Shown here: in pieces, positions 18,729 through 62,238 of the stretch
Layout of the letters: the number at the start of each line of letters is the position of its first letter
How positions within the stretch are numbered: the stretch's first letter is position 1
From: Sinohyriopsis cumingii
Taxonomy: Eukaryota; Mollusca; Bivalvia; Unionida; Unionidae
Length of the DNA: 64,000 nucleotides
NCBI GenBank assembly: GCA_028554795.2
Contig: CM068825.1
Coordinates: 95,907,451-95,971,450, forward strand
Direction of reading: 5' to 3'
The notes under the pieces: generated by a model
Database searches by the model: none
Told to the model about the DNA's origin: nothing
The model's input: the letters and a program-made list of their open reading frames with translations, nothing else
Position numbers and translations under genes: made by a program

Positions 18729-19045
18729 AGTAGTATATGGGGGCACTTTACGGACAATGGGAATTAGCATTAAAAACACCCCTGGGTCAGTTTACGGACA
18801 ATGGAAATTTAACATGGCGAAAAATCGTGGGTCAGATTACGGACAAGGGGAATTAACATGGCAAAAAATCGTGGGTCACTTTACGGACAAGGGGAATTTA
18901 ACATGGCGATAAATCGTGGGTCACTCTACGGACAAGGGGAATTTAACATGGGATTTTTTTTTAAAAAAAATTTTTTAAAAAAAGGGGTAGGCAATTTAAA
19001 GACTATCTCTTTTCGAGAAATATGGGGGCCCTGAAAAGGGCCTTT
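18729..19045 (+). repeat. Polinton A left terminal inverted repeat with five iterons
   Basis: Inverted copy of 38213-38530. It contains five iterations of a 30-45 bp unit with the core TTACGGACAA(T/G)GG followed by AATTTAACATGG, from about 18743 to 18945. An A/T homopolymer palindrome (18952-18981) follows, and then the histone-type stem-loop that ends the last gene. Confidence 0.9.
19006..19042 (-). terminator. Histone-type 3' stem-loop and purine element (A, gene 19062-19448)
   Basis: On the minus strand: A-rich flank AACCCAAA, stem-loop GGCCCTTTTCAGGGCC (19042-19027), CCCA, then GAAAAGAGA (19014-19006) 12 nt downstream. It lies 20 nt after the stop codon and inside the TIR. Confidence 0.8.
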
Positions 19046-19061
19046 GGGTTTTCTTCTTCTT

Positions 19062-19448
19062 CTAATTTCTTCTTTTCCTCCACCAAGTTCTTATTTTATC
19101 TCCTACACTCTTCTTCTCTTTCTTTTTTTTCTTCTCCTCCTCTTCTTTCTTCTTCTCTTCCTCCTCTTCTTTCTTCCTCTTCTCATTTTCTTCTTCTTTT
19201 TCAATTTTTTCGTTCCATCTTCTTATTCTTATCTTTTCCTCTTCATCCTCCTTCTCCTCCTTTATTTCCTTCATCACACCACTAATCTTGTCCTTTGCTT
19301 TTCTTAAGTTGTTAATTTCCATCTTTACACGATGGGGACTATAGGAATAATGGTCTTCAACCAGTCTTATTAGCATCTGTTCCATTATTCCTAAGTTGTC
19401 TAAAACGTCTTGCAAGGTTTGTATTTTGTCCATTTGGTTTGACGCCAT
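19062..19448 (-). CDS. Accessory coiled-coil protein, terminal gene (A)
   Basis: 128 aa, ATG at 19446-19448. The N-terminal about 65 residues (IQTLQDVLDNLGIMEQMLIRLV, then KAKDKISGVMKEI) form an amphipathic helical segment. An extreme Glu/Lys tract and a basic Trp-containing tail (KIRTWWRKRRN) follow. The helical segment resembles those of 19884-20246 and 20740-21093, suggesting one expanded family. The counterpart in element B (61376-61969) has barely recognisable sequence similarity but the same position, the same kind of tail (KVRRWLKKWKC) and the same 3' signal. Function unknown; the segment could mediate oligomerisation. Confidence 0.7.
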   Translation of the reverse strand: MASNQMDKIQTLQDVLDNLGIMEQMLIRLVEDHYSYSPHRVKMEINNLRKAKDKISGVMKEIKEEKEDEEEKIRIRRWNEKIEKEEENEKRKKEEEEEKKKEEEEKKKKKEKKSVGDKIRTWWRKRRN

Positions 19449-19508
19449 CTTCTTTTTATTCTTTGCAGAATGGTTTGAACGACGAATACTGTGGGTTCTT
19501 ATACTTAA

Positions 19509-19606
19509 AGCGCGTACGTGAAGGAAAACATCCCCCTAAAAACATAAAATGGATCTTACCTAGATCATGACCAAACAACGCGCGGACGTGAAGGAAAACA
19601 TCCCCT
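19509..19606 (-). promoter_or_regulatory. Accessory-gene promoter: two boxes and a palindrome (A, gene 19062-19448)
   Basis: On the minus strand the box TTTTCCTTCACGTCCGCGC preceded by GGGGATG occurs at 19606-19578 and again (one change, GTACGCGC) at 19537-19509. Between them is GATCT-AGGTA-AGATC, an inverted repeat, near 19551-19565. A TATA-like GTATAAG lies at about 19500, roughly 50 nt upstream of the ATG. Bases 19607-19816 beyond are AT-rich with no gene. Confidence 0.65.
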
Positions 19607-19816
19607 ACTTTTTCATTTCATATAATATAACCCAAACTATACTCTCCCCATTTGCTAAGAAACAATAAAGAAACCCATAATCTACTATTCTCACAAACAT
19701 ACCTTTACTCATACAAACACAAACACACAAACACTTACCCTCACATTTTTTTAAAGAAAGAGTTAGTGTTTATATTGACACTACTCTACCTACACACATT
19801 GGCAAATCGATCGTTA

Positions 19817-19854
19817 TTTCTTTTCTAGAGTATTGGGTAGCCCTGAAAAGGGCT
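19817..19854 (-). terminator. Histone-type 3' stem-loop and purine element (A, gene 19884-20246)
   Basis: Minus strand: AAACAGCCCTTTTCAGGGCT (stem-loop 19854-19839), then ACCCA exactly as in histone mRNAs, then GAAAAGAAA (19825-19817) 13 nt downstream. 29 nt after the stop codon. Confidence 0.8.
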
Positions 19855-19883
19855 GTTTTGTTTGGAACTTCATGGGCACCTGG

Positions 19884-20246
19884 TTAATGGTGGCACCTTC
19901 CGGGCCTGGCGCCACATACGCATCTTATCCCCCAGTTACTTTTTACCTTTTGGGGGGAGAGAGCAGAGGCAGGATATGTCGCTTCAGAATCCCAATTTTC
20001 GCTCTCTGGGATTTTGAAATTTCTTCTCTCCTTTTCCTCCTCCTCTTCTTTGTTTCTTCTTTCTTCTTTATATCTTCTTTCTTCTTCTTCTTTATATCTT
20101 CTCTCCTCCTCTTCTTTGTTTCTTCTTTCCTCCTCTCTTATCCTTCCCTCCTCGACAATGGCTTCCGCGGCCAGTTCATTTAATATGCGCCTGGCATATT
20201 CCAGATGCACATGAAGCTCCAACAGTTTCTCAAGTCTCGTGTTCAT
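19884..20246 (-). CDS. Accessory coiled-coil protein, middle gene (A)
   Basis: 120 aa, start ATG 20244-20246 (an upstream non-ATG extension is not conserved). Helical N-terminus LEKLLELHVHLEYARRILNEL, a long EERRNKEEEERRYKEEE repeat tract, then PESENWDSEATYPASALSP and a Cys-containing end (CVCGARPGRCHH). The Glu/Arg tract is built from repeated 15-18 bp units, so its length varies between A and B. Own promoter and own histone-type 3' signal. Unknown function; paralogous to its neighbours by the L..L....L..AR..L pattern. Confidence 0.75.
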   Translation of the reverse strand: MNTRLEKLLELHVHLEYARRILNELAAEAIVEEGRIREEERRNKEEEERRYKEEEERRYKEERRNKEEEEEKERRNFKIPESENWDSEATYPASALSPQKVKSNWGIRCVCGARPGRCHH

Positions 20247-20302
20247 TTTTTGGTGTTGATCAATCAACAAGGGTAGCTGGACTGCCGAACGAGTTTCAAT
20301 TT

Positions 20303-20400
20303 ATACTGAAAGCGCGGACGTGAAGGAAAACATCCCCTAAAAAACATAAAATTGATCTTACCTAGATCATGACCCAACAACGCGCGGACCTAAAAGAAAC
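20303..20400 (-). promoter_or_regulatory. Accessory-gene promoter (A, gene 19884-20246)
   Basis: A good box at 20339-20310 (TTTTCCTTCACGTCCGCGC) and a degenerate one at 20400-20380, with the GATCT...AGATC palindrome between them (about 20355-20369). A TATAAAT box at 20309-20303 lies 57 nt upstream of the ATG. Bases 20401-20671 are an AT-rich spacer without a gene. Confidence 0.65.
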
Positions 20401-20671
20401 ACTCACTCACTTTTTTATGCTACCCATCACTATTGTAAAATTTTTTATAAATCACTTCAATAGACTATCCACATAAGCAAAACAATCCAATCTAACTCCA
20501 AATATACACCTCAAAAACCCAAAAAACATTATTTTAATCTACTATCCTCACCAACTTACGTTAGCTCTTACAAACACAAACACACAAACACATACCCTCA
20601 CATTTTTTATAAAAGAGTTAGTGTTTATTTTCACACTACTCTACCTACTCACATTGGCAAATTAATAGTTA

Positions 20672-20709
20672 TTTCTTTTCTAGAGTATTGGGTAGCCCTG
20701 AAAAGGGCT
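20672..20709 (-). terminator. Histone-type 3' stem-loop and purine element (A, gene 20740-21093)
   Basis: Minus strand: AGCCCTTTTCAGGGCT (20709-20694), ACCCA, then GAAAAGAAA (20680-20672). 30 nt after the stop codon. Confidence 0.8.
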
Positions 20710-20739
20710 GTTTTTTTGTTTTGCTATGGCATTCTTTTT

Positions 20740-21093
20740 TTAGTTTCTAAGAATGCGATGTCCTCTGAGGATAGACTTTCTGGCAATAGGTCTGCTTCTT
20801 CGGAAAGAGAAGAAGAACTCTTTGGTGTCGATACGGCAATCGACAAAGCCTCTGTCAGGTTCAGGTTGCTGCTGCTGCTGTTCTTGTTGTTGCTGCTGTT
20901 TTTGAAGTCTGTACTTCTCTGTCCATTCTTCTTTTTCCCTGTTCACTTCTTCTCTGAAGAGCTCTTCTATTAGGTCTTCAGTGATTTTTAACATTCTCAC
21001 ATTCTCTATTTCTTCTGGCTTCGGTATCAGACTGTGTCTGACCCTATGCAAATTCACGTAGGCTTCGTTGAGCTTAGCTAGTTTGGAGCACAT
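20740..21093 (-). CDS. Accessory poly-Gln coiled-coil protein (A)
   Basis: 117 aa from ATG 21091-21093; the longer frame from a TTG is not supported because element B aligns from the same ATG. N-terminal helix KLNEAYVNLHRVRHSLI, then TEDLIEELFREEVNREKEEW, a Gln run (KQQQQQEQQQQQPEPD) and a basic Arg-rich end. Conserved in B (59704-60069) with a longer Gln run. Same transcription unit design as its neighbours. Function unknown. Confidence 0.8.
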   Translation of the reverse strand: MCSKLAKLNEAYVNLHRVRHSLIPKPEEIENVRMLKITEDLIEELFREEVNREKEEWTEKYRLQKQQQQQEQQQQQPEPDRGFVDCRIDTKEFFFSFRRSRPIARKSILRGHRILRN

Positions 21094-21157
21094 CTTCTTA
21101 GGAGGATGAGTCGACAATGGATGGTTAGACTGGGAACAAACCGGTTCTTAAAGTTAA

Positions 21158-21187
21158 AGCGCGGACGTGAAGGAAAACATCCCCCCA
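21158..21187 (-). promoter_or_regulatory. Accessory-gene promoter box (A, gene 20740-21093)
   Basis: Single copy of the TTTTCCTTCACGTCCGCGC box. Downstream CTTTAACTTTAAG is a poor TATA substitute. The 21188-21425 interval holds the 3' UTR of the protease gene. Confidence 0.6.
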
Positions 21188-21306
21188 CACGGTTTTTTCG
21201 AGCCGCAACGTTCATGAGAGAGATAGTAAGAAATGAAAGAGCATCAATCCAACATTCTTATAGCTAAACAAAAGACAAAGGCATTTTTTTCTAAACACAA
21301 CATTTT

Positions 21307-21312
21307 TTATTC
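21307..21312 (-). terminator. AATAAA polyadenylation signal after the late block (A)
   Basis: AATAAA on the minus strand about 115 nt past the protease stop, conserved at 59481-59486 in element B. No histone-type stem-loop is present here, unlike the accessory genes. Confidence 0.6.
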
Positions 21313-21425
21313 AAAAATCACTTAACACTAAACAACAACATTTCTAACATTTTTAACAATAATCCAACACTATAACATCTAACAACCTTTTTCTAATCAC
21401 AAACATTTTTTTCTTCAAATACTAA

Positions 21426-21986
21426 CTACTTTGAACAGGGCTGACAACGTTGTGAATGAAATTGTGATTTCCACTGTTGGAAATCATTAGGCCATTGATG
21501 GACACTACGTTTCCTAGCTTGAGACAAAAGATAAGCATAATGGTCACAAAACCATCGATCTACTTTCACATCGTTTCTAGCAGAAGAACGAGGATCGAAA
21601 TGAGTCACTAAATGTTCTAAGGAATAGCCCAGGCTGCGATGATGCAGAAAATACACACAATATTGTCCACACACCAAGGAATCTGTGCCTTGTAATTTCA
21701 CATTATTGAATCGGGTGGTTTGAGCATTTCTTCTCATAAAGTCAATGATATCGTCTTCCAAAGGGGGCAATCCGTACGAATCGAAATATTCCACACATCC
21801 TTCTTGAGGAAAGTAGACGGCTGCCCAGTGGGTTCCTGGGAGATGACTGTCGTCCGTGTTGATCACGTAAGCTTGATGGTCTTTAGGTTTGCGATGAGGG
21901 AGTTCATCTTTAGCACAGACGACAGGATTCCAAGAAGCTGTATACGAACTGTGGTTCAAAAGGTAATAAAGTTCCCAGGTATCCAT
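21426..21986 (-). CDS. Adenain-like cysteine protease (A)
   Basis: 186 aa from ATG 21984-21986. Maturation protease of Polintons, related to adenovirus adenain (C5) and Ulp1-like peptidases; it would cleave virion proteins during assembly. Visible catalytic set: His53 in GTHWAAVYF, Asp69 in VEYFDSYG, Gln99 in KLQGTDS and Cys110 in CGQYCVYF, spaced much as in adenain. Frame intact. The C-terminus (QWPNDFQQWKSQF) differs from that of B, where a one-base change shifts the last 25 residues. It lies at the end of the late block, followed by an AATAAA. Confidence 0.9.
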   Translation of the reverse strand: MDTWELYYLLNHSSYTASWNPVVCAKDELPHRKPKDHQAYVINTDDSHLPGTHWAAVYFPQEGCVEYFDSYGLPPLEDDIIDFMRRNAQTTRFNNVKLQGTDSLVCGQYCVYFLHHRSLGYSLEHLVTHFDPRSSARNDVKVDRWFCDHYAYLLSQARKRSVHQWPNDFQQWKSQFHSQRCQPCSK

Positions 21987-22015
21987 TGTTTTCTGTGTTG
22001 TTTTTTTCTTCTTCT

Positions 22016-22492
22016 TCACAGGTAATAATAAGTTGTCAATTCGATCCTGACTTTTTGCTTGAAAATGTCTGACGAATAAACGGTTATTCGTTCTGTTTCC
22101 TCACTCTGATTTAGGAGAGCTTCGATACGATGGATCTCTTGAGTGGTTAATGGTGGACAAGAATGTTCACGCAAGTCTTTATACCACTGGTGCAACACGT
22201 CTTTGTTTGAGATGAGACTCCAAGCTTCGTCCAGATACTCGTCCAATTTTTCTTCTTGACTCAACATCAGGCATTTATCGTGTTGAATTTGACTGGGATG
22301 ATCGTTTTGACATCCATAACAATTTTTCTTGATCAATTCCGTCATTTTGTCAACCAAGTGTTTGGCAAAACAGGAGACTAAATGGGCTTCTTGTTCTGGC
22401 CATCTCGACTTCATCATGATCACTTCTTCTTTTTCCTCACATTCCATCTCCAAAGTTTCTCCACTAGGTAAAGAGGGACAACAGTCTTCCAT
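22016..22492 (-). CDS. Conserved Polinton protein with Cys/His motif (A)
   Basis: 158 aa. Acidic N-terminus, then CYGCQNDHPSQIQHDKCLM, a C-x2-C...H...C arrangement that could bind zinc and that I recall from other Polintons. A helical C-terminal half (EEKLDEYLDEAWSLI, TTQEIHRIEALLNQSEE) follows. It lies between MCP and protease. Function not established; the conservation of position suggests a replication or assembly role. Confidence 0.75.
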   Translation of the reverse strand: MEDCCPSLPSGETLEMECEEKEEVIMMKSRWPEQEAHLVSCFAKHLVDKMTELIKKNCYGCQNDHPSQIQHDKCLMLSQEEKLDEYLDEAWSLISNKDVLHQWYKDLREHSCPPLTTQEIHRIEALLNQSEETERITVYSSDIFKQKVRIELTTYYYL

Positions 22493-22497
22493 GGTTT

Positions 22498-23796
22498 CTA
22501 GTAATCTAGGATGACTTCTCTCAAACTGTTGATTTCTATGGTATTATCGAATTCTGCATACAGGATGACGTTCACTGTCTCTTTCAGTGGTTCTGCAAAC
22601 TGAAGTTCCACACGAATCTGGCCAGATTTTATAGGGTGGAAATGTCCCTCGTCGCTGCCTTGGTCTGGAGTGAAATCGAAAGCCCACAAAGCGTAGCCTC
22701 CTGCATAATCCTCGTACGTAATACCGTGACTGGTGTTGGTTCCTAACTGTCCGGTGGCTTCGTACAGGGACAAGTACGATCTCAAGTAATTCTTCTCTTT
22801 AAAGTCAGGTTCTAAAGGTCGGGTACACAAGGTTTTGCCATCGCGACTGACTTCGATTTTCTTCACGTTAAAGTGTTGAAAGTTGAAAGGATTTTGAGCG
22901 AAGGCTCCGTTGAAGGCTGAATTCGAGACCATACCAAGGATCAAACGTTTGGGTAGCTGTCCTTGGAACAGATGATCTTCGATCATGGAATGATGTCCAA
23001 CGGGAATGGTGAACGTTTTCACTTCCACGCGTCGTATGGGATACTTGGCGGTCGTTCTGCTCAACGTTTGACTGATGTCGTTACCTACTTTGGGTAACAC
23101 TTCCACGCGTCGTACGTAGAGTTTGGCCTCTTCGATTTTGCTTTTAGGAGCCTTAGCATCCTCAGCCAACAAATGGAAAGCGGTACTGCTACGATTCAGT
23201 CTCAAGCGGACATTGACTCCGTTCAGCAAATATTTCTCTTGCAACCACATGTCCAAATGCAAACGATCCATCAGTTCTAAACTCTTCTTATCTAAGATTT
23301 TGAGTTCTCTTTGCTCAAAGCCGCTATTGGTTCCATCTACAAGGTCGAACTTGCCCGCTTCGTCAGGTTCCCACAGCACAGAAGCATTGAGATGGGTATC
23401 CTTGGCATCTATTCCGTACGTCAAGAGATTTTCCAGGTAGGCACGGTAAGGGTAAGTATCCATGCTGCTGCTGACCAGTTTGTTATTCAAGTACAAGTCC
23501 ACTCCACTAAACAAGGAATGCATGAAATTGTTGACGGGAGCTATATTCTCAGTGTCATCTACTGCACCATCATCCTTATCTAGAACTTTGACTTTCAAGT
23601 ACAAGTAACTGCTATTCAGATCGATGTAATCTTCGGGCTGTCCTTTGATTTCAAACTCGATGGGAGCTGAGGCTGTCAATGAGGAGACGGGATGAAATTC
23701 CACCCATTGAGATTCTTGCATCGTCATCATGGTGGGGGGCATGGCAAACAGATCCAGTTCCGTCTTGGAACAAGCGCAAGACTCTCGGTGCATCAT
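22498..23796 (-). CDS. Major capsid protein, double jelly roll (A)
   Basis: 432 aa from ATG 23794-23796 (in B the start aligns here). Begins CACSKTELDLFAMPP and continues WVEFHPVSSLT, EDYIDLNSSYLYLKVKV, NNFMHSLFSGVDLYLNNKLV and YPYRAYLENLLTYG, the signature of Polinton hexon-like capsid proteins that form trimeric pseudo-hexameric capsomers. Central KYPIRRVEVKTFTIP and the C-terminal GGYALWAFDFTPDQ and VNVILYAEFDN are also typical. The frame is fully open, unlike the frameshifted copy in B. It overlaps nothing and lies 15 nt from the pVI-like gene. Confidence 0.93.
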   Translation of the reverse strand: MMHRESCACSKTELDLFAMPPTMMTMQESQWVEFHPVSSLTASAPIEFEIKGQPEDYIDLNSSYLYLKVKVLDKDDGAVDDTENIAPVNNFMHSLFSGVDLYLNNKLVSSSMDTYPYRAYLENLLTYGIDAKDTHLNASVLWEPDEAGKFDLVDGTNSGFEQRELKILDKKSLELMDRLHLDMWLQEKYLLNGVNVRLRLNRSSTAFHLLAEDAKAPKSKIEEAKLYVRRVEVLPKVGNDISQTLSRTTAKYPIRRVEVKTFTIPVGHHSMIEDHLFQGQLPKRLILGMVSNSAFNGAFAQNPFNFQHFNVKKIEVSRDGKTLCTRPLEPDFKEKNYLRSYLSLYEATGQLGTNTSHGITYEDYAGGYALWAFDFTPDQGSDEGHFHPIKSGQIRVELQFAEPLKETVNVILYAEFDNTIEINSLREVILDY

Positions 23797-23810
23797 TTTT
23801 TCTCTGTGTT

Positions 23811-24227
23811 TCAATAATCGAAAACGTCTAAGTCTCGAACGGTTCTTCTTTTCTTAGCCTTTCTCGCTTGAAGTCTGGTGAAAGGGTGTTTTCTTCGTCG
23901 TCTCTTTCTGCCTTGTCCTTGCTGAATGCCTGACTCGGTAGCGTGCAGAACATTTATAGGTGTGTCTCGTCGGCCCAAAATGTCTTTGCCCGTTTGCAGC
24001 AAGACATTTTTGTCAGCCCTCATGAAGGCTTCTTTAGGGTTTTGTTTGTCGATGATGACATTTTGGAGAAATTCTTTACCTTGCGTCAGTGCCGCATCTT
24101 TCAAAGCGTGCAATCCGCGTGTCACCATCGGTTTCAACACTGGGGCCACCGAACGAAAGGCCGATTTTAACATGTCTCCTAAACCGTGTCCTCGCTGTCG
24201 AGCAACCCCTCGGTACACTGGATACAT
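23811..24227 (-). CDS. Small basic virion protein, adenovirus pVI/pX-like (A)
   Basis: 138 aa. Begins MYPVYRGVARQRGHGLGDML, then an amphipathic Ala/Leu/Lys helix (SAFRSVAPVLKPMVTRGLHAL) and a very basic end (GRKRRRRKHPFTRLQARKAKKRR). The GxGLG plus amphipathic-helix pattern recurs in Polinton/adintovirus small virion proteins, which are compared with adenovirus membrane-active or core proteins. A TATAAAAGG box lies 93 nt upstream within the penton gene. In element B a 55-nt deletion fuses this frame to the penton gene. Confidence 0.75.
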   Translation of the reverse strand: MYPVYRGVARQRGHGLGDMLKSAFRSVAPVLKPMVTRGLHALKDAALTQGKEFLQNVIIDKQNPKEAFMRADKNVLLQTGKDILGRRDTPINVLHATESGIQQGQGRKRRRRKHPFTRLQARKAKKRRTVRDLDVFDY

Positions 24228-24234
24228 GATTTAC

Positions 24235-25170
24235 TTACGAGTCGTGAGAAGACCGTTTTCGAAAATGGAGTTTCACCGTGACTTTTCCTTTGGTGAATGA
24301 AATATTTTGTCCCAAATCTCCTTTTATAGTAATGTTGACTGTGTCCAAATACGACTTGCTGACAGGTAAATAGTGAGGATGGACAAATTCGCGGTGGACG
24401 TGGTAAGTGTTTCCACCTTCCTCGTCAGCGTTTGCGGCAGAATCCACTTTGAAAGGAATGACACGCAGTAACGGTACGGAGGTGTGTCCCACCACGTTGT
24501 ACTCCACCACATCGGAGTACACGAACATCAAATTCAGTCCTTGGTTCAGTTCTACCGGGGTACGAAAATACTTGGCAAAAGAATCGTTGTCAGAAATGAC
24601 TGGTAATTCACCTTTTTCTTGTTCTACTTTCTTCCTTAGCTCCATGTCACCGCCCAACATGTCAAACAATTCATGACAAAATAAGAAAGACATGATTTTG
24701 GGCCCCTCAGGAAATTTCATCAGGAAGCGACGAGCTGTTTTGTGGTACTCCAGGGTGACACTTTTTTTGACACTTTCCAAAGCTTTCAGAAACACACTAT
24801 TAAACCTGGTGGCTATGGTGTTGACCAAATGTTGACCACTAAAATAATAGCCTGGGGGAATGAACAAGTGATAGGTGGTCCACTTTAGATTTGGTGTACG
24901 GGTTTTCTTGTCATATTTGCTATGGGTATCCAAGTACTGTTGCATTTGTTCGTCATGAACTTCCACATCAAATTTATTTTGATTGGGAAGGACATTGAGG
25001 ACTTGGGTCGGGTGAATCATTTCTACTAAAGCCACTTCCCAATGGGCTTCGTGATCTAAGGGGATGGCTTGAGGTAATTTGGCCGTGTAACAGCACAACG
25101 TGTTATTGGGAAACACCTCCATGGAACTGTCACTGGGTAAGGTCAAGTAAAATTGGTTTTCGTGACTCAT
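24235..25170 (-). CDS. Penton-like minor capsid protein, single jelly roll (A)
   Basis: 311 aa. Starts MSHENQFYLTLPSDSSMEVF, followed by YTAKLPQAIPLDHEAHWEVAL and IPPGYYFSGQHLVNTI, the conserved N-terminal pattern of the Polinton minor capsid (penton) protein placed at capsid vertices. The C-terminal strand region ends in KGKVTVKLHFRKR. Its ATG overlaps the TGA of the upstream membrane-protein gene (ATGA). Frame intact. Confidence 0.9.
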   Translation of the reverse strand: MSHENQFYLTLPSDSSMEVFPNNTLCCYTAKLPQAIPLDHEAHWEVALVEMIHPTQVLNVLPNQNKFDVEVHDEQMQQYLDTHSKYDKKTRTPNLKWTTYHLFIPPGYYFSGQHLVNTIATRFNSVFLKALESVKKSVTLEYHKTARRFLMKFPEGPKIMSFLFCHELFDMLGGDMELRKKVEQEKGELPVISDNDSFAKYFRTPVELNQGLNLMFVYSDVVEYNVVGHTSVPLLRVIPFKVDSAANADEEGGNTYHVHREFVHPHYLPVSKSYLDTVNITIKGDLGQNISFTKGKVTVKLHFRKRSSHDS

Positions 25171-25577
25171 AATTCTAGAGTTCTGTGGCTGTCCGAGGGG
25201 ATATTACTGGACGTCAGAGGCGTGTCTCCGCCCAAAATGGGGTTCTGGATGTTGTTGGAGTGGTGACTGGCACTGGCACTGGACACAACGTTCCCGTTCG
25301 AACAGAATTTCAGGGAGGGATTGGGAAGCAGGTAACCGATGCAACTGCTCAATAAAATGGTCCACAATTGTTTGTCTCCTTGTTGCAAACTCAAATTGGC
25401 GATGGCTGCCCCGATGACACAATACACCACGAAGATTTGGCAGAAAAAGACGATTTGCGTTTTAGGCACACGTTCTCCACACCACACCCACAAGGGTTGT
25501 TTTTGTAAATCTTGCACAGAAGAACTAGGGGAAGAAGGAGTGGTCGACGTAGCTGCGTCTGCTGTGTGAAAGGGCAT
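25167..25577 (-). CDS. Conserved membrane protein with two hydrophobic segments (A)
   Basis: 136 aa from ATG 25575-25577. After a Ser/Thr-rich N-terminus and PLWVWCGERVPKTQ come IVFFCQIFVVYCVIGAAIA (transmembrane) and LWTILLSSCIGYLLPNP (probably a second). The tail is polar and Ser/Asn-rich. Lies between integrase and penton, and I recall similar proteins at this place in other Polintons; a virion or host-membrane role is an inference. A TATAAAAAG is embedded in the final codons of the integrase gene just upstream. Confidence 0.75.
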   Translation of the reverse strand: MPFHTADAATSTTPSSPSSSVQDLQKQPLWVWCGERVPKTQIVFFCQIFVVYCVIGAAIANLSLQQGDKQLWTILLSSCIGYLLPNPSLKFCSNGNVVSSASASHHSNNIQNPILGGDTPLTSSNIPSDSHRTLEL

Positions 25578-25582
25578 GATGG

Positions 25583-26695: not shown

Positions 26696-26716
26696 TTTTT
26701 ATTTTGTGTTGGCGTG

Positions 26717-27418: not shown

Positions 27419-27467
27419 GGGGTTGTCAGGGGTCGATTCTGAGATCTTGGGACTTTCGAAGGCCTTT

Positions 27468-53307: not shown

Positions 53308-53356
53308 AAAGGCCCTCGGAAGTCCCAAGATCTCAGAATTGACGCCTGACAACCCC

Positions 53357-54082: not shown

Positions 54083-54105
54083 CATACGAACACAAAAAAT
54101 AAAAA

Positions 54106-55215: not shown

Positions 55216-55220
55216 CCATC

Positions 55221-55637
55221 ATGCCCTTTCACACAGCAGACGCAGCTACGTCGACCACTCCTTCTTCACCTAGTTCTTCTGTGCAAGATTTACAAAAACA
55301 ACCCTTGTGGGAGTGGTGTGGAGAACGTGTGCCTAAAACGCAAATCGTCTATTTCTGCCAAATCTTCGTGGTGTATTGTGTCATCGGGGCAGCCATCGCC
55401 AATTTGAGTTTGCAACAAGGAGACAAACAATTGTGGACCATTTTATTGAGCAGTTGCATCGGTTACCTGCTTCCTAATCCCTCCCTGAAATTCTCCTCGA
55501 ACGGGAACCTTGTGTCCAGTGCCAGTGTCAGTCACCACTCCAACAACAACCACAACCAAAACCCCATTTTAGACGGAGACACGCCACTGACGTCCAGTAA
55601 TAACCCCTCGGAGAGCCACAGAACTCTGGAATTATGA
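55221..55637 (+). CDS. Conserved membrane protein with two hydrophobic segments (B)
   Basis: 138 aa from ATG 55221-55223. IVYFCQIFVVYCVIGAAIA and LWTILLSSCIGYLLPNP conserved; the Ser/Asn-rich tail is slightly longer than in A. Its TGA overlaps the next ATG (ATGA at 55634-55637). Confidence 0.75.
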   Translation: MPFHTADAATSTTPSSPSSSVQDLQKQPLWEWCGERVPKTQIVYFCQIFVVYCVIGAAIANLSLQQGDKQLWTILLSSCIGYLLPNPSLKFSSNGNLVSSASVSHHSNNNHNQNPILDGDTPLTSSNNPSESHRTLEL

Positions 55638-56947
55638 GTCACCAAAACCAATTTTACTTAACCTTACCCAGTGCCAGTTCCATGGAGGTGTTTCCCCACA
55701 ACAAGTTGTGCTGTTACACGGCCAAATTACCTCAGGCCATCCCCTTAGATCACGAAGCCCATTGGGAAGTGGCTTTAGTAGAAATGTTTCACCCGACCCA
55801 AGTCCTCAATGTCCTTCCCAATCAAAATTTTTTTCATGTGGAAGTTTATGACGAACAAGTGCAACAGTGGATGGATAACCATAGCAAATATGACAAGAAA
55901 ACCCCTCCCACAAAAACTCAAAAGTACACCATCTATCACTTGTTCATTCCCCCAGGCTATTATTTTAGTGGTCAACATTTGGTCAGCACCATAGCCACCA
56001 GGTTTAATGGCGTGTTTCTGAAAGCTTTGGAGGAAGCCAAAAGAGGTATCGTCACCCTGGAGTACCACAAAACAGCTCGTCGCTTTCTGATAAACTTTCC
56101 TGAGGGGCGTAAAATGATGTCTTTCTTATTTTGTCCTGAATTGTTTGACATGTTGGGCGGTGACATGGAGCTGAGGAAGAAAGTAGAACAAAAACCCGAA
56201 TTACCAATCATTGCCGACAACGAGACTTTTGTCAAGTATTTTCGTACCCCGGTAGAACTGAATCAAGGACTGAATTTGATGTTCGTGTATTCTGATGTGG
56301 TGGAGTACAACGTGGTGGGACACACCTCCGTGCCGTTACTGCGTGTCATTCCTTTCAAAGTGGATTCTGCCGCAAACGCTGGCGAGGAAGGTGGAAACAC
56401 TTACCACGTTCACCGCGAATTTGTCCATCCTCACTATTTGCCGGTCAGCAAGTCGTATTTGGACACGGTCAACATTACTATAAAAGGAGATTTGGGACAA
56501 AATATTCCATTCACCAAAGGAAAAGTCACGGTGAAACTCCATTTTCGAAAACGACAGCGAGGACACGGTTTAGGAGATATGCTGAAATCGGCCTTTCGTT
56601 CGGTGGTCCCAGTATTGAAACCGATGGTGACACGCGGATTGCACGCCTTGAAAGATGCGGCACTGACGCAAGGCAAAGAATTTCTCCAAAATGTCATCAT
56701 CGACAAACAAAACCCTAAAGAAGCCTTCATGAGGGCAGGCAAAAATGTCTTGCTGCAAACGGGCAAAGACATTTTAGGCCGACGAGACACACCTATAAAT
56801 GCCCTGCACGCTACCGAGTCAGGCATTCAGCAAGGACAAGGCAGAAAGAGACGACGAAGAAGAAAACACCCTTTCACCAGACTTCAAGCTAGAAAGGCCA
56901 AGAAAAGAAGAAGAACCGTTCGAGACTTAGACGTTTTCGATTATTGA
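55634..56947 (+). CDS. Penton-like protein fused to pVI-like protein by deletion (B)
   Basis: 437 aa. Residues 1-about 307 are the penton-like protein (FYLTLPSASSMEVF, IPPGYYFSGQHLVSTI). At LHFRKR the frame runs straight into RGHGLGDMLKSAFRSV of the pVI-like protein. Element A has 55 extra nt here containing the penton stop and the pVI-like ATG. 55 is not a multiple of three, and the two frames differ by one, so the deletion joins them in frame. The TATAAAAGG that precedes the second gene in A persists at 56479-56487. Confidence 0.85.
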   Translation: MSHQNQFYLTLPSASSMEVFPHNKLCCYTAKLPQAIPLDHEAHWEVALVEMFHPTQVLNVLPNQNFFHVEVYDEQVQQWMDNHSKYDKKTPPTKTQKYTIYHLFIPPGYYFSGQHLVSTIATRFNGVFLKALEEAKRGIVTLEYHKTARRFLINFPEGRKMMSFLFCPELFDMLGGDMELRKKVEQKPELPIIADNETFVKYFRTPVELNQGLNLMFVYSDVVEYNVVGHTSVPLLRVIPFKVDSAANAGEEGGNTYHVHREFVHPHYLPVSKSYLDTVNITIKGDLGQNIPFTKGKVTVKLHFRKRQRGHGLGDMLKSAFRSVVPVLKPMVTRGLHALKDAALTQGKEFLQNVIIDKQNPKEAFMRAGKNVLLQTGKDILGRRDTPINALHATESGIQQGQGRKRRRRRKHPFTRLQARKAKKRRRTVRDLDVFDY

Positions 56948-56966
56948 GACACAGCAACAAAAAAAA

Positions 56967-58285
56967 ATGATGCACCGAGAGTCTTGCGCTTGTTCCAAGT
57001 CGGAACTGGATCTGTTTGCCATGCCCCCCACCATGATGACGATGCAAGAATCCCAATGGGTGGAATTTCACCCCGTCTCCTCATTGACCGATTCCGCTCC
57101 CATTGAGTTTGAAATCAAAGGACAGCCCGAAGATTACATCGATCTGAATAGCAGTTACTTGTACTTGAAAGTCAAAGTTCAAGATAAGGATGGAAATGCT
57201 ATAGACACTGAGTCAGTAGCTCTCGTCAACAATTTCATGCATTCCTTGTTCAGTGGAGTGGACTTGTACTTGAATAACAAACTGGTCAGTAGCAGCATGG
57301 ATACTTACCCTTATCGAGCGTACCTAGAAAATCTCTTGACGTACGGAATAGACGCCAAGAACACTCATCTCAATGCCTGTGTGCTATGGGAATCTGACGA
57401 AGCAGGCCAGTTTGAAAATTTCGAAATTGATCCAAAGAGTACAACAAACAATGACGGATTTGTAGAACGAAGAAACAAAATCATGGGACCCAACAAAAGT
57501 TTAGAACTAATGGATCGTTTGCATTTGGACATGTGGTTGCAAGAGAAATATTTGCTAAACGGGGTGAATGTTCGCCTGAGACTGAATCGTAGCAGTACCG
57601 CTTTCCATTTATTGGCTGATACTGACGATAATTACAAAACCAAAATCGAAGAAGCCAGACTCTACGTACGCCGTGTGGAAGTGTTACCTAAAGTGGGTAA
57701 CGACATCAGTCAGACGTTGAGCAGAACGACCGCCAAGTATCCCATACGACGCGTGGAAGTGAAAACCTTCACCATTCCCAAGGGACAGCGATCCATGATC
57801 GAAGATCATCTGTTCCAAGGACAGCTACCCAAACGTTTGATCGTTGGTATCGTCGAGAATACAGCCTTCAACGGAGCTATCAATAAAAATCCTTTCAACT
57901 TTCAACACTTTGGCGTGTCCAAGATCGAAGTCAGTCGCGATGGCAAAACCTTGTGTACCCGACCTTTCGAACCCGACTTTGAGAAGAAGAATTACTTGAG
58001 ATGTACTTGTCCCTGTACGAAGCCACGGGACAGTTAGGAACCAATACAAGTCAGGGCATTACGTACGACGATTACGCAGGAGGCTACGCTTTGTGGGCTT
58101 TTGATTTCACTCCAGACCAAGGCAGCGACGAGGGACATTTCCACCCTATAAAATCTGGCCAGATTCGTGTGGAAATTCAGTTTAAAGACCGAGTCCCTGA
58201 TGAAACGGTGAACGTCATTCTGTATGCCGAATTTGATAATACCATAGAAATCAACAGTTTGAGAGAAGTCATTCTAGATTACTAG
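56967..58285 (+). pseudogene. Major capsid protein, double jelly roll, frameshifted (B)
   Basis: ATG 56967. Open through KYPIRRVEVKTFTIP to NYLR, where one base is missing near 58000. The C-terminal about 90 residues (GGYALWAFDFTPDQ, VNVILYAEFDNTIEI) continue in another frame to 58285. A variable surface region at residues about 150-175 differs in length from A. The lost segment belongs to the second jelly roll. Confidence 0.9.
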
Positions 58286-58290
58286 AAACC

Positions 58291-58779
58291 ATGGAAGACT
58301 GTTATCCCTCTTTACCTAGTGGAGAAACTTTGGAGACGAAATGTGAGGAGACTGTGGAAGAAGAAGAAGAAGTGATCATGATGAAGTCGAGATGGCCAGA
58401 ACAAGAAGCCCATTTAGTCTCCTGTTTTGCCAAACACTTGGTCGAAAAAATGACGGAATTGATCAAGAAAAATTGCTATGGATGTCAAAACGATCATCCC
58501 AGTCAAATTCAACACGATAAATGCCTGATGTTAAGTCAAGAAGAAAAATTGGACGAGTATCTGGACGAAGCTTGGAGTCTCATCTCGGACAAAGACGTGT
58601 TGCACCAGTGGTATAAAGACTTGCGTGAACATTCTTGTCCACCATTAACCACTCAAGAGATCCATCGTATCGAAGCTCTCCTGAATCAGAGTGAGGAGAC
58701 GAAACGAAGAAACGGTTATTTGTCAGACATTTTCAAGCAAAAAGTCAGGATCGAATTGACGACTTATTATTACCTGTGA
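58291..58779 (+). CDS. Conserved Polinton protein with Cys/His motif (B)
   Basis: 162 aa, orthologous to 22016-22492 with a slightly longer acidic run (ETVEEEEEV). The CYGCQNDHPSQIQHDKCLM motif is unchanged. Frame intact. Confidence 0.75.
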   Translation: MEDCYPSLPSGETLETKCEETVEEEEEVIMMKSRWPEQEAHLVSCFAKHLVEKMTELIKKNCYGCQNDHPSQIQHDKCLMLSQEEKLDEYLDEAWSLISDKDVLHQWYKDLREHSCPPLTTQEIHRIEALLNQSEETKRRNGYLSDIFKQKVRIELTTYYYL

Positions 58780-58804
58780 AGAAGAAGAAAAAAACACACA
58801 AAAC

Positions 58805-59359
58805 ATGGATACCTGGGAACTTTATTACCTTTTGAACCACAGTTCGTATACGGCTTCTTGGAATCCTGTCGTCTGTGCTAAAGATGAACTCCCTCATTGC
58901 AAACCTAAAGACCATCTAGCTTACGTGATCAACACGGACGACAGTCATCTCCCAGGAACCCACTGGGTAGCCGTTTACTTTCCTCAAGAAGGATGTGTGG
59001 AATATTTCGATTCGTACGGATTGCCCCCTTTGGAAGACGATATCATCGACTTTATGAGAAGAAATGCTCAGACCACTCGATTCAATAATGTGAAATTACA
59101 AGGCACAGATTCCTTGGTGTGTGGACAGTACTGTGTGTATTTTCTGCATCATCGCAGCCTGGGCTATTCCTTAGAACATTTAGTGACTCATTTCGATCCT
59201 CGTTCTTCTTCTAGAAACGATGTGAAAGTAGATCGATGGTTTTGTGACCAGTATGCTTATCTTTTGTCTCAAGCTAAGAAACGTAGTGTCAATCATGGCC
59301 TAATGATTTCCAACAGTGGAAATCACAATTTCATTCACAACGTTGTCAGCCCTGTTTAA
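58805..59359 (+). CDS. PRO: Adenain-like cysteine protease, altered C-terminus (B)
   Basis: 184 aa. His (GTHWVAVYF), Asp (YFDSYG), Gln (KLQGTDS) and Cys (CGQYCVYF) all present. After KKRSV a small indel shifts the frame, giving NHGLMISNSGNHN instead of the A-type end. The catalytic core precedes the change, so activity may remain. Confidence 0.85.
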   Translation: MDTWELYYLLNHSSYTASWNPVVCAKDELPHCKPKDHLAYVINTDDSHLPGTHWVAVYFPQEGCVEYFDSYGLPPLEDDIIDFMRRNAQTTRFNNVKLQGTDSLVCGQYCVYFLHHRSLGYSLEHLVTHFDPRSSSRNDVKVDRWFCDQYAYLLSQAKKRSVNHGLMISNSGNHNFIHNVVSPV

Positions 59360-59480
59360 AGTAGAGTGTGAATTGAGAAAAAAAATGTTTGTGATTTGAA
59401 AAAATTGTTTGATGTTATCATGTTGGATTATTGTTTAAAATATGTTAGAGTTGTTGTTGGTTAGTGTTAAGTGATTTTTG

Positions 59481-59486
59481 AATAAA
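59481..59486 (+). terminator. AATAAA after the late block (B)
   Basis: About 120 nt past the protease stop, as in A. The interval 59360-59611 is 3' UTR without other features. Confidence 0.6.
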
Positions 59487-59611
59487 AAATGTTGTGTTTT
59501 GAAAAAAATGCCTTTGTCTTTTGTTTAGCTATAAGAATGTTGGATTGATGCTCTTTAATTTCTTACTATCCCTCTCATGACACTCATTGAACGTTGCGAC
59601 TCGAAAACCGT

Positions 59612-59640
59612 GGGGATGTTTTCCTTCACGTCCACGCTTT
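59612..59640 (+). promoter_or_regulatory. Accessory-gene promoter box (B, gene 59704-60069)
   Basis: GGGGATGTTTTCC followed by TTCACGTCCACGC; one change from the common box. 64 nt before the ATG. Confidence 0.6.
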
Positions 59641-59703
59641 GACTTTAAGAACCGTGGCAGTTTCCAGTTTAACCATCCATTGTCGACTCATCCTCCTACG
59701 AAG

Positions 59704-60069
59704 ATGTGCTCCAAACTAGCTAAGCTCAACGAAGCCTACGTGAATTTGCATAGGGTCAGACACAGTCTGATACCGAAGCCAGAAGAAATAGAGAATGTCA
59801 GAATGTTAAAAATTACTGAAGACCTGATAGAAGAACTCTTCAGAGAAGAAGTGAACAGGGAGAAAGAAGAATGGACAGAAAAGTACAGACTTCAGAGACA
59901 GCAGCAGCAACAGCAACAGCAGCAACAACAACAGCAGCAACAACCTGAAGCTGACAGAGGCTTTGTCGATTGCCGTATCGACACCAAAGAGTTCTTCTTC
60001 TCTTTCCGAAGAAGCAGACCTATCGCCAGAAAGTCTATCCTCAGAGGACATCGCATTCTTAGAAACTAA
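59704..60069 (+). CDS. Accessory poly-Gln coiled-coil protein (B)
   Basis: 121 aa from ATG 59704-59706, orthologous to 20740-21093. The Gln run is longer (about 16 of 17 residues, mixed CAG/CAA). Other residues are nearly all conserved. Frame intact. Confidence 0.8.
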   Translation: MCSKLAKLNEAYVNLHRVRHSLIPKPEEIENVRMLKITEDLIEELFREEVNREKEEWTEKYRLQRQQQQQQQQQQQQQQQPEADRGFVDCRIDTKEFFFSFRRSRPIARKSILRGHRILRN

Positions 60070-60096
60070 AAAAGATTCCATAGCAAACAAAAAAAC

Positions 60097-60135
60097 AGCC
60101 CTTTTCAGGGCTACCCCAATGCTCTAGAAAAGAAA
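60097..60135 (+). terminator. Histone-type 3' stem-loop and purine element (B, gene 59704-60069)
   Basis: AAAAAC flank, AGCCCTTTTCAGGGCT (60097-60112), ACCCC, GAAAAGAAA (60127-60135). Confidence 0.8.
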
Positions 60136-60420
60136 TAACCATCAATTTGCTAATGTGTAGGTAGAGTAGTGTGAATATAAACACTAACTCTTTTTTAAAA
60201 AATGTGAGGGTATGTGTTTGTGTGTTTGTGTATAAGATTGTGTGTTTGTAAGTGCTAACGTACGTTGGTATGGATAGTAGATTAAAATGATATCTTTTTT
60301 GGTGATTGAGGTGTATATTTTGGGTTAGATTGGATTGCTTTGCGTATGTGAATAGTCTATTGAAGTGATTCATGAAAAAATTTTTAGAATAGGAATGGGT
60401 AGCATAAAAAAGTGAGTCAG

Positions 60421-60538
60421 TGTTTCTTTTAGGTCCGCGCGTTGTTTCTTTGGTCATGATCTAGGTAAGATCAATTTTATGTTTTTAGGGGATGTTTTCC
60501 TTCACGTCCGCGCTTTTGACTATAAATTGAAACTCGTT
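60421..60538 (+). promoter_or_regulatory. Accessory-gene promoter (B, gene 60579-60935)
   Basis: Degenerate box 60421-60444, palindrome GATCT-AGGTA-AGATC at about 60459-60473, good box at 60488-60515, TATAAAT at about 60522. Bases 60136-60420 are an AT-rich spacer with TTTGTGTG runs. Confidence 0.65.
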
Positions 60539-60578
60539 CAGCAGTCCAGCTAACCTTGTTGATTGATCAACACCAAAA

Positions 60579-60935
60579 ATGAACACGAGACTGGCGAAAC
60601 TGTTGGAACTTCATGTGCATCTGGATTATGCCAGGGGCCTGTTGAATGAACTGGCCGCGGAAGCCATTGTGGAAGACGGAAGGATGAGAGAGGAGGAGGA
60701 GGAAAGAAGAAACAAAGAAGAGGAGGAGAGAAAATACAAAGAAGAGGAGGAGGAGAGAAGAAACAAAGAAGAGGAGGAAAAGGAGAGAGGAAGAAGAAAT
60801 TTCAGAATCCCAGAGAGCGAAAATTGGGATTCTGAAGCCACATATCCTGCCTCTGCTCTCTCCCCCCAAAAGGTAAAAAGTAACTGGGGGACAAGATGTG
60901 TATGTGGCGCCAGGCCTGGAAGGTGCCACCATTAA
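60579..60935 (+). CDS. Accessory coiled-coil protein, middle gene (B)
   Basis: 118 aa, orthologous to 19884-20246. The Glu-rich repeats are re-arranged (EEEERRNKEEEERKYKEEEE) relative to A. The end CVCGARPGRCHH is identical. Frame intact. Confidence 0.75.
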   Translation: MNTRLAKLLELHVHLDYARGLLNELAAEAIVEDGRMREEEEERRNKEEEERKYKEEEEERRNKEEEEKERGRRNFRIPESENWDSEATYPASALSPQKVKSNWGTRCVCGARPGRCHH

Positions 60936-60971
60936 CCAGGTGTCCATGAAGTTCCAAAAAAAAAAAAAACC

Positions 60972-61009
60972 AGCCCTTTTCAGGGCTACCCAATACTCTA
61001 GAAAAGAAA
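60972..61009 (+). terminator. Histone-type 3' stem-loop and purine element (B, gene 60579-60935)
   Basis: AAAACC flank, AGCCCTTTTCAGGGCT (60972-60987), ACCCA, GAAAAGAAA (61001-61009). Confidence 0.82.
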
Positions 61010-61217
61010 TAACTATCCATTTGCCAATGTGTGTAGGTAGAGTAGTGTGAATATAAACACTAACTCTTTTTGCATTGTGCGAGTGAATGTGTTTGTGTGT
61101 TTGTGTTAGTAACTGCTCACGTAAGTTTGTGTGACTAGTAGATTATGGGTTAGTTTATTATTTATTAGCGTATGTGGAGAGTATAGTTAGGGTTTTATTA
61201 TATGAAATGAGAAAAGT

Positions 61218-61325
61218 GGGGGATGTTTTCCTTCACGTCCGCGCGATGTTTGGTCATGATCTAGGTAAGATCAATTTTATGTCTTAGGGGGATGTTTTCC
61301 ATCACGTTCGCGCTTTCACTGTAAG
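61218..61325 (+). promoter_or_regulatory. Accessory-gene promoter (B, gene 61376-61969)
   Basis: Two boxes (61218-61245, and 61287-61314 with two changes) around the GATCT...AGATC palindrome (about 61258-61272). CTGTAAG stands in place of a TATA box. 61010-61217 is an AT-rich spacer. Confidence 0.65.
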
Positions 61326-61375
61326 AACCCACAAGGTTTGATGTTGGAACCATTCTAAGGAATAACTGAGACAAA

Positions 61376-61969
61376 ATGACTCAAGTATCAGTTCTATTTA
61401 ATCTATTGAGAGACATCTATTTCTGGATAATGGATGTAGAATATGTTTTAGGAAGAATAGAAGAGGAATGGAGGCATGGAGATATGAAAGACTTTGTAAC
61501 GAGTCAAGTTCAAGACCTAAAGACAGCAAGAGATATCATAGCAGGGATGATTGAAGAAGAAGTCAATAAGTCAAGAGGCTTCATTAACCCACCTTACTTC
61601 AGAGTGGGAAGTTTGAAGGAAGCACTGGATCATGTCATCCAAGTCCGGTGCTTCCTAGAAAAAATATTGTATTGGACAGAGTGGAGGAATGTAAAATGGG
61701 GATTGGAAAAGGTGAAGAAAGGGGAAGATCTGATGAGAAAAGTAATGGAGGAAGAAGTAGAGAAGATTAAAGAGAAATGGAGGGAAGAAAGAAAAGATGT
61801 GGAAAACAAAAAGAAACAGGCAGAGTTTGAGAGGTTGCATCAGAATTGGATAAAAGTTCAGGAAAAGTTTAAAGCTCTAGGTCATCCTGACTGGATGCCA
61901 GAAAAGGAGAAAAAGAAGACAGGAATAGTGACAAAAGTGAGAAGATGGTTGAAGAAGTGGAAGTGTTAG
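61376..61969 (+). CDS. Accessory helical protein, terminal gene, duplicated domain (B)
   Basis: 197 aa. Two related helical segments: LLRDIYFWIMDVEYVLGRIE...TARDIIAGMIEEEV (about 10-66) and LKEALDHVIQVRCFLEKILY...GEDLMRKVMEEEV (about 80-135). A charged helix and the basic tail KVRRWLKKWKC follow. The single domain in the A gene (19062-19448) resembles the second half. Sequence divergence far exceeds that of all other gene pairs, suggesting fast evolution or replacement. Confidence 0.7.
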   Translation: MTQVSVLFNLLRDIYFWIMDVEYVLGRIEEEWRHGDMKDFVTSQVQDLKTARDIIAGMIEEEVNKSRGFINPPYFRVGSLKEALDHVIQVRCFLEKILYWTEWRNVKWGLEKVKKGEDLMRKVMEEEVEKIKEKWREERKDVENKKKQAEFERLHQNWIKVQEKFKALGHPDWMPEKEKKKTGIVTKVRRWLKKWKC

Positions 61970-61972
61970 AAG

Positions 61973-62238
61973 AAACCCAAAGGCCCTTTCCAGGGCCAGC
62001 CATATTTCTCGAAAAGAGAATGACTTTTCAATTGCCTATCCTTTTTTTTAAAAAAAAATCCCATGTTAAATTCCCCTTGTACGTAAAATGACCCACAATT
62101 TATTCCCATGTTAATTCCCCTTGTACGTAAAGTGGTACGCGATTTTTCGCCATGTTAAATTTCCATTGTACGTAAAGTGGCCCAGGGGTCTCTGTAATGT
62201 TATTTTGCATTGTACGTAAGGTGGCCCTATTCACTAAT
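61973..62238 (-). repeat. Polinton B right terminal inverted repeat with four iterons
   Basis: Inverted copy of 42445-42720 with a shorter A/T tract. All four iterons read TTGTACGTAA on the plus strand. Confidence 0.9.
61982..62019 (+). terminator. Histone-type 3' stem-loop and purine element (B, gene 61376-61969)
   Basis: AACCCAAA flank, GGCCCTTTCCAGGGCC (61982-61997; loop TTCC instead of TTTC), AGCCA, GAAAAGAGA (62011-62019). 12 nt after the stop. Confidence 0.8.

Follow-up and report, generated by a model that had tools for sequence, protein, structure and literature searches.

Why do small genes at the ends of a virus-like transposon terminate in the manner of histone genes? This question is raised by a 64,000-nucleotide stretch of contig CM068825.1 of the bivalve Sinohyriopsis cumingii (assembly GCA_028554795.2, positions 95,907,451 to 95,971,450), referred to here as the window. 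It holds two Polinton/Maverick elements, A and B, each with five small accessory genes at its ends: E1, E2 and E3 lie in a row at one side and E4 and E5 form a divergent pair at the other. We consider it highly probable that the accessory genes of this Polinton family are built like the replication-dependent histone genes of the host and are expressed in the histone programme. An initial annotation of the window had proposed histone-type 3′ ends for these genes, and its interpretation was partly supported.

Histone-type 3′ ends of the accessory genes

All ten accessory genes of A and B end in a stem-loop followed on the same strand by a downstream purine box, which resembles a histone downstream element (HDE). 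Each stem-loop starts 12–36 nt past the stop codon of an open same-strand open reading frame (ORF). The stem-loops and boxes had been described in the initial annotation and were borne out by three kinds of search. The pattern RGCCCTTTTCAGGGCY, with up to three mismatches, gave 11 matches in the window against 1.22 expected, a number reached by none of 100 shuffles; ten matches are the accessory-gene sites (0–1 mismatch) and one is an unrelated match with three mismatches at 36108. The Rfam model RF00032 (Histone3) detected exactly the ten sites at E ≤ 1, three of them above the gathering score of 34 bits and the other seven at 25.1–33.2 bits (E 9.7e-6 to 0.0099). The third search used a model trained on the host and is described below.

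The purine box starts 12, 13 or 14 nt after the stem at one, eight and one of the ten sites, respectively, which corrects the spacing of 9–14 nt given before. It is of the GAAAAG type at nine sites and GAAAGA at one. An A-rich 5′ flank is present, and the stem is followed by ACCCA, AGCCA or ACCCC except at site 19027, which has one base fewer (CCCAT). The loop had been described as TTTC throughout; site 61982 has TTCC. The supposed compensated wobble at 42698–42713 turned out to be a single, one-sided C-to-T change that gives one G.U wobble, with nothing compensated. The outermost stem-loop at each element end sits inside the terminal inverted repeat (TIR). Element B duplicates A in inverted orientation, and the TIRs include the outer stem-loops, so the ten sites are not independent observations; the independent evidence amounts to fewer than ten sites, and the argument therefore rests on the host genes and on other copies.

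The host genome (2.9 Gb, 1138 contigs) carries tandem histone units of approximately 8.3 kb with H3, H4, H2B, H2A and H1. A comparison with these genes, named beforehand as a check in the initial annotation, confirmed the histone mRNA layout, with the same stem, flank and spacing and a similar box. The 16-nt stem-loop of host H2B (GGCCCT-TTTC-AGGGCC) is identical to that of the element, and H3 and H4 end in GGCCCT-TTTT-AGGGCC, H2A in GGCCCT-TTTA-AGGGCC and H1 in GGTCCT-TTTC-AGGACC. The host purine box, likewise of a GAAAAG type, starts 13 nt (H3, H4, H2B) or 14 nt (H2A, H1) after the stem, as at nine of the ten element sites, and TCTAGAAAAGA is common to host H3 and H2B and to E2 and E3 of the element. 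A covariance model built from the five host histone 3′ ends alone assigned 43.4–53.9 bits to the ten element sites and 15.1 bits (E 0.7) to the eleventh match in the window, a gap of 28 bits. On 18 host loci (44.7 kb) not chosen for the motif, its best match reached 16.6 bits (E 0.2). On 33 loci with other copies, it gave 71 matches at E ≤ 0.0026 and five at E 0.51–0.70; only flank and box are independent here, because these loci were chosen by the exact stem-loop core. At a histone-exon locus outside the arrays, of a histone type that was not established, the pattern found no stem-loop and the best match of the host-trained model had E 0.65.

None of the 36 core ORFs listed (window 21426–36297 and 44662–59359) has a stem-loop in the 120 nt that follow its stop codon. 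The word A[AT]TAAA occurs within this distance at six of them, including the zinc-knuckle gene, where AATAAA lies 86 and 85 nt on in A and B. Eight of the ten accessory 3′ flanks are free of A[AT]TAAA within 120 nt, and in one of the other two the word lies upstream of the stem.

Promoter blocks and genomic copies

The 350 nt upstream of E1a, E2 and E3 (E1a being the E1 gene of element A) each contain the 23-nt block GATGTTTTCCTTCACGTCCGCGC, from which the host H2B promoter differs at one position and the H1 promoter at two. The E2 upstream region also has 21 nt identical to the host H4 promoter. In all, 60 pairings were aligned and each was compared with 200 shuffles; a pairing was reported if no more than two shuffles reached its score. 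The promoter blocks against H2B and H1, and E2 against H4, scored 40–43 and were reached by no shuffle. The remaining reported pairings were E1a with H4 (score 27, 1/200) and three H2A matches (score 30, 1–2/200); the H2A promoter contains a related block in the other orientation, which is not significant (1–2/200). Seven core-gene upstream regions were paired with all five histone promoters (35 pairings), and the reported matches were two short ones, the CCHC gene with H3 (score 25, 0/200) and the BIR gene with H2B (score 27, 1/200), and both were treated as chance because many pairings were made. The promoter blocks, which the initial annotation did not contain, strengthened its histone reading.

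E4 and E5 diverge from one short common promoter region (37744–37962) with TATA- and CCAAT-like words. This arrangement resembles that of divergent H2A–H2B pairs. The region has no significant similarity to the host histone promoters.

Genome-wide, the pattern GATGTTTTCNWTCACGTCCGCGC of the promoter block occurs in 31,152 copies (reversed control 0). On one contig (C1), 50 listed block places fall inside the stretch covered by the stem-loop list. An exact stem-loop follows on the same strand within 1300 nt downstream at 42 of these places and on the opposite strand only at none; eight have neither. Promoter block and stem-loop therefore travel together around small ORFs.

The 14-nt stem-loop core occurs 28,062 + 28,697 = 56,759 times in the genome, compared with 2 + 1 for the reversed control. 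At five cores each, this would correspond to element copies, whole or partial, of the order of ten thousand, with host H2B genes accounting for some of the cores. The initial annotation had considered that the same hairpin at non-gene positions throughout the genome would speak against its reading. The hairpin is indeed very common, but among the first 100 listed places, 36 are in E4/E5-type (−,+) pairs, 49 in same-strand runs and 15 alone, and of 13 lone places fetched, 11 follow a stretch of accessory ORF (tblastn). The other two (L085 and L086, at G000:C1:1719889 and 1733763) are 13.9 kb apart and show, by eye, a shortened E1a-type ORF, with the same stem-loop and box as the element and different subterminal repeats; they may mark both ends of another element, perhaps a satellite of this Polinton. 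Same-strand ORFs of at least 58 aa precede 51 of 59 stem-loops, compared with one of 59 on the antisense side at a threshold of at least 55 aa. A further 20 element ends, selected because they have the exact core, all contained RF00032 matches (50 at E ≤ 1, of which 21 lie above gathering).

Variation among copies was analysed at 72 sites, of which 67 fall into three classes and five, belonging to small classes, were left out. Nucleotide diversity of the purine box was 0.015, 0.056 and 0.006 in the three classes, compared with 0.144–0.409, 0.055–0.181 and 0.117–0.331 in four windows outside the 3′-end signal, values that are raised in the two larger classes because paralogous gene ends were pooled. 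The spacer between stem and box reached 0.110, 0.364 and 0.109. The downstream box is thus of low diversity in two of three classes. It was not used in choosing the loci, whereas conservation of the stem is biased because the loci were chosen by the exact core. Of ten sites without the exact core, three have an altered loop, two a wobble and five one broken pair; the box has been lost at three others (L027, L080, L088), where the core is exact. These changes are as expected of decaying copies. The sole two-sided stem change between gene classes is at the first pair, G–C in E1, E4 and E5 versus A–U in E2 and E3. Covariation as proof of selection on the stem was rejected, since the non-core sites show broken pairs, wobbles and loop changes.

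The two elements and their accessory proteins

A and B are Polinton/Maverick elements. Each is approximately 20 kb long, they lie in opposite orientation, and each is flanked by a perfect 6-bp target-site duplication (TSD) read directly from the sequence. The TIR arms of A span 18729–19051 and 38208–38530. The inverted blocks shared by A and B are 89–98% identical (25 longest blocks listed, two of them not A/B). Pfam matches above cut-off comprise PF03175, PF00665 and PF00385 (PolB, retroviral-type integrase and chromodomain), PF04665 (packaging A32-type ATPase), a BIR domain and a zinc-knuckle protein. A match to the adenoviral-type protease PF00770 remained below cut-off (E 0.035 and 0.017), and none of the 30 ORFs scanned matched a capsid family, although Pfam models may not cover the capsid proteins. 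Tandem repeats of 44–45 nt lie inside the TIRs (18740–18917 and 38271–38493) and are possible integrase or replication-protein sites. Element A further contains an ORF with a BIR (inhibitor of apoptosis) domain (31474–32064, E 1e-20) and a 210-nt direct repeat (30779–30988 and 31247–31456, 87% identical). Outside the elements, inverted repeat arms of 360 nt at 7128–7487 and 14254–14613, 94% complementary and 6.8 kb apart, probably represent another mobile element. The coordinates of all features are given in Table 1.

The E1 slot is occupied by E1a or E1b, depending on the copy, and both are served by the stem-loop inside the TIR. With one stem-loop inside each TIR, the ORF adjoining the repeat inherits a histone 3′ end. 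By eye, the only part common to E1a (19062–19448) and E1b (61376–61969) is a basic, tryptophan-containing C-terminus. Across six accessory ORF families, dN/dS ranged from 0.09 to 0.33 (pooled pairwise Nei–Gojobori estimates from 51 of 59 ORFs), dead copies being under-represented because only ORFs open for at least 55 aa and pairs differing by more than 2% were chosen. Such values suggest purifying selection on the accessory ORFs. In eight of the ten accessory ORFs, those scanned with Pfam, neither a histone nor any other family was found above cut-off, and no histone family was listed. The proteins have charged middles, coiled-coil-like by eye, and their C-terminal 40 residues are net-positive in all nine versions examined, E2 with merely +1. 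The C-terminus of E4 (window 37177–37225), GLGRGKGLRQLK, looks by eye like the GRGKGGK tail of H4 and H2A. Protein relatives of E4 (20) and E1b (4) sit on contigs of approximately 0.9–2.3 kb. In the viral-contig collection, patterns and proteins were without match, one pattern search giving 23 matches of which none was confirmed.

Table 1. Coordinates of the features of elements A and B (position 1 is the first letter of the window)
Feature	Element	Position	Strand	Basis and remarks
Polinton/Maverick element	A	18729..38530	.	TIRs; TSD AATACG at 18723-18728 and 38531-38536; Pfam integrase, PolB, A32-type ATPase
Polinton/Maverick element, inverted copy	B	42445..62238	.	Inverted-repeat blocks vs A; TSD ATCGAA at 42439-42444 and 62239-62244; PolB pieces
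HDE-like box of E1a, GAAAAGAGA	A	19006..19014	-	Read after stem
E1a stem-loop, inside left TIR	A	19027..19042	-	Pattern, RF00032, host-trained model
E1a, 128 aa	A	19062..19448	-	Stem-loop 19 nt downstream; dN/dS of family 0.09
Histone-type promoter block of E1a, proximal	A	19510..19532	-	Read from sequence; one mismatch to other copies
Histone-type promoter block of E1a, distal	A	19580..19602	-	Aligned to host H2B and H1 promoters, 0/200 shuffles
HDE-like box of E2, GAAAAGAAA	A	19817..19825	-	Read after stem
E2 stem-loop	A	19839..19854	-	Pattern, RF00032, host-trained model
E2, 120 aa	A	19884..20246	-	Stem-loop 29 nt downstream; dN/dS of family 0.25
Histone-type promoter block upstream of E2	A	20312..20334	-	Alignment, shuffles
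H4-promoter-like block upstream of E2	A	20379..20399	-	Alignment to host H4 promoter; 21 nt identical
HDE-like box of E3, GAAAAGAAA	A	20672..20680	-	Read after stem
E3 stem-loop	A	20694..20709	-	Pattern, RF00032, host-trained model
E3, 117 aa	A	20740..21093	-	Stem-loop 30 nt downstream; dN/dS of family 0.19
Histone-type promoter block upstream of E3	A	21159..21181	-	Alignment, shuffles
HDE-like box of E4, GAAAAGAAA	A	37111..37119	-	Read after stem
E4 stem-loop	A	37133..37148	-	RF00032 41.2 bits, host-trained model
E4, 188 aa	A	37177..37743	-	Stem-loop 28 nt downstream; dN/dS of family 0.33; 20 protein relatives
E5, 76 aa, basic	A	37963..38193	+	Stem-loop 22 nt downstream; dN/dS of family 0.15
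E5 stem-loop, inside right TIR	A	38216..38231	+	RF00032 35.6 bits, host-trained model
HDE-like box of E5, GAAAAGAGA	A	38245..38253	+	Read after stem
HDE-like box of E5, GAAAAGAGA	B	42676..42684	-	Read after stem
E5 stem-loop, one G.U wobble	B	42698..42713	-	Pattern, RF00032, host-trained model
E5, 77 aa	B	42738..42971	-	ORF before stem-loop
E4, 191 aa	B	43191..43766	+	ORF before stem-loop
E4 stem-loop	B	43792..43807	+	RF00032 38.9 bits, host-trained model
HDE-like box of E4, variant GAAAGAAAT	B	43821..43829	+	Read after stem
Histone-type promoter block upstream of E3	B	59615..59637	+	Read from sequence; one mismatch
E3, 121 aa	B	59704..60069	+	ORF before stem-loop
E3 stem-loop	B	60097..60112	+	Pattern, RF00032, host-trained model
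HDE-like box of E3, GAAAAGAAA	B	60127..60135	+	Read after stem
H4-promoter-like block upstream of E2	B	60423..60443	+	Read from sequence
Histone-type promoter block upstream of E2	B	60491..60513	+	Read from sequence
E2, 118 aa	B	60579..60935	+	ORF before stem-loop
E2 stem-loop	B	60972..60987	+	Pattern, RF00032, host-trained model
HDE-like box of E2, GAAAAGAAA	B	61001..61009	+	Read after stem
Histone-type promoter block of E1b, distal	B	61222..61244	+	Read from sequence
Promoter block of E1b, proximal, CCATCACGT form as H2B	B	61291..61313	+	Read from sequence; one mismatch to H2B
E1b, 197 aa, different ORF in E1 slot	B	61376..61969	+	Family dN/dS 0.13; 4 protein relatives
E1b stem-loop, loop TTCC, in right TIR	B	61982..61997	+	Pattern, RF00032, host-trained model
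HDE-like box of E1b, GAAAAGAGA	B	62011..62019	+	Read after stem

Competing explanations and biological meaning

As described in earlier reports, the stem-loop of histone pre-mRNA is bound by SLBP, the U7 snRNP pairs with the downstream element and the cleaved mRNA carries no poly(A) tail (PMC9756948, PMC6303110, PMC1924863); cleavage occurs after ACCCA (PMC6303110). Given the agreement with host histone genes in stem, flank, spacing and box, the host machinery should treat the accessory transcripts as histone pre-mRNA. The host stem-loop binding protein would bind the stem-loop and the host U7 snRNP would pair with the purine box, so that the pre-mRNA would be cut approximately 5 nt after the stem and would lack a poly(A) tail. 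The accessory genes would then be expressed mostly during S phase and in fast-dividing cells of the germ line or embryo, and a histone-timed group of genes would be set apart from the core genes. The 3′-end signals probably originated by capture from the host.

Several observations weigh against this account. The upstream regions of E4 and E5 have no promoter block of the histone type in shuffle-tested alignments to the five host histone promoters. The stems of E2 and E3 start with an A–U pair, whereas all five host histone stems start with G–C. Both the stem-loop and A[AT]TAAA are missing from the 120 nt behind the stop of 30 of the 36 core ORFs, so that the contrast between core and accessory genes lies in the stem-loop only. 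Covariation within copies is weak, given the five broken pairs and two wobbles among ten sites; the box is lost at three exact-core sites; the E4-class box (0.056) is no less diverse than one flank (0.055), and pooling inflates the flank values of the two larger classes. Nor were the processing factors of the host recovered. A profile search for U7 with RF00066 gave no match among the 65 of 801,960 candidates scored, and none in control genomes either. A search by Sm-site pattern gave ten matches (reversed control 2), none U7-like by eye: L075, L076 and L078 were read as one integrase-looking coding sequence, and the other seven were rejected for want of a U7-like 3′ hairpin. Rfam at E ≤ 1 gave no match at these ten loci. 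For SLBP, PF15247 found no match in 14 of 14 candidates scored or in control genomes, a negative that is uninformative because exons were searched singly and the domain may be split.

The accessory mRNAs might alternatively be cut and polyadenylated further downstream, with the stem-loop and box captured from a histone gene and retained as an auxiliary or fail-safe signal. There are precedents for such mixed use: the cited reports describe both modes for human H2AC18 (PMC9756948) and a hairpin plus AATAAA in histone genes of C. elegans (PMC1924863), and A[AT]TAAA appears within 120 nt in two of the ten window flanks. The other eight flanks lack it, one of the two words lies upstream of the stem, and the box, for which the poly(A) machinery has no need, is of low diversity in two of three classes. 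We therefore regard this explanation as improbable.

Two of the five sites per element lie inside TIRs, as might be expected if the hairpins were a DNA-level signal, bound by the integrase or a replication protein or serving as a palindrome for terminal-protein priming. The other three are internal and come directly after stop codons, the orientation of all ten agrees with that of the gene, and the match extends to a host-type A-rich flank, a cleavage site and a box at fixed spacing. The 44–45-nt tandem repeats of the TIRs would suit protein binding better, and a DNA-level role is very unlikely.

Virophages are relatives of Polintons. A hairpin 3′ end of the giant-virus type, cut and polyadenylated by virus-coded enzymes, would have its model in the Mimiviridae, which according to one report polyadenylate at hairpin-forming palindromes (PMC4402537). 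The likeness consists in a hairpin at the transcript ends of a virus-like entity. In the present elements the stem, flank and box resemble those of host histone genes in sequence and spacing, are presumably recognized by host enzymes, and are confined to a subset of genes (0/36 core ORFs); furthermore, no RNase III-type or poly(A) polymerase domain was found in the 30 ORFs given to Pfam. This model is even less credible. Chance or shared base composition, for which nothing speaks beyond the shortness of the stem, has next to no probability in view of 11 pattern matches against 1.22 expected, 56,759 genomic cores (mostly copies of one family) against three in the reversed control, and the 28-bit gap of the host-trained model.

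Accessory genes expressed as part of the histone programme thus remain the preferred explanation. They share with metazoan histone genes the 6-bp stem, the 4-nt loop, the A-rich flank, the ACCCA-type cleavage site, the host-spaced box, a short 3′ untranslated region mostly free of A[AT]TAAA (8/10 flanks) and, with host H2B, an identical 16-mer. They differ in that they encode no recognizable histones, are part of a mobile element and have some stems that start with A–U. With described Polintons/Mavericks, the elements share a length of approximately 20 kb, TIRs, a 6-bp TSD, PolB, an integrase with chromodomain, an A32-type ATPase and a weak protease-like match; the five accessory genes with histone-type 3′ ends, three of them with histone-type promoter blocks, set them apart. 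In the literature searched, which did not extend to subscription journals and preprints, no description of a histone stem-loop on Polintons or other transposable elements was found. On balance, we favour the view that a selfish element took a whole histone-gene cassette (promoter block, stem-loop and U7 target) for non-histone genes and has placed the 3′ end on six gene families or more.

These data suggest that the element borrows the histone-making programme of the cell to time its expression. If so, the histone stem-loop would mark the ends of a further class of animal protein-coding mRNAs besides those for histones, and RNA data obtained by poly(A) selection would miss the accessory transcripts. 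The S-phase output of approximately 56,000 stem-loop cores could compete for host SLBP and U7, and element transcripts could be drawn to histone locus bodies. The stems with an A–U first pair offer natural variants for probing the tolerance of SLBP and U7. If the transcripts are processed as they look, they would provide a direct and testable route by which the genes of a mobile element are coupled to host DNA synthesis.

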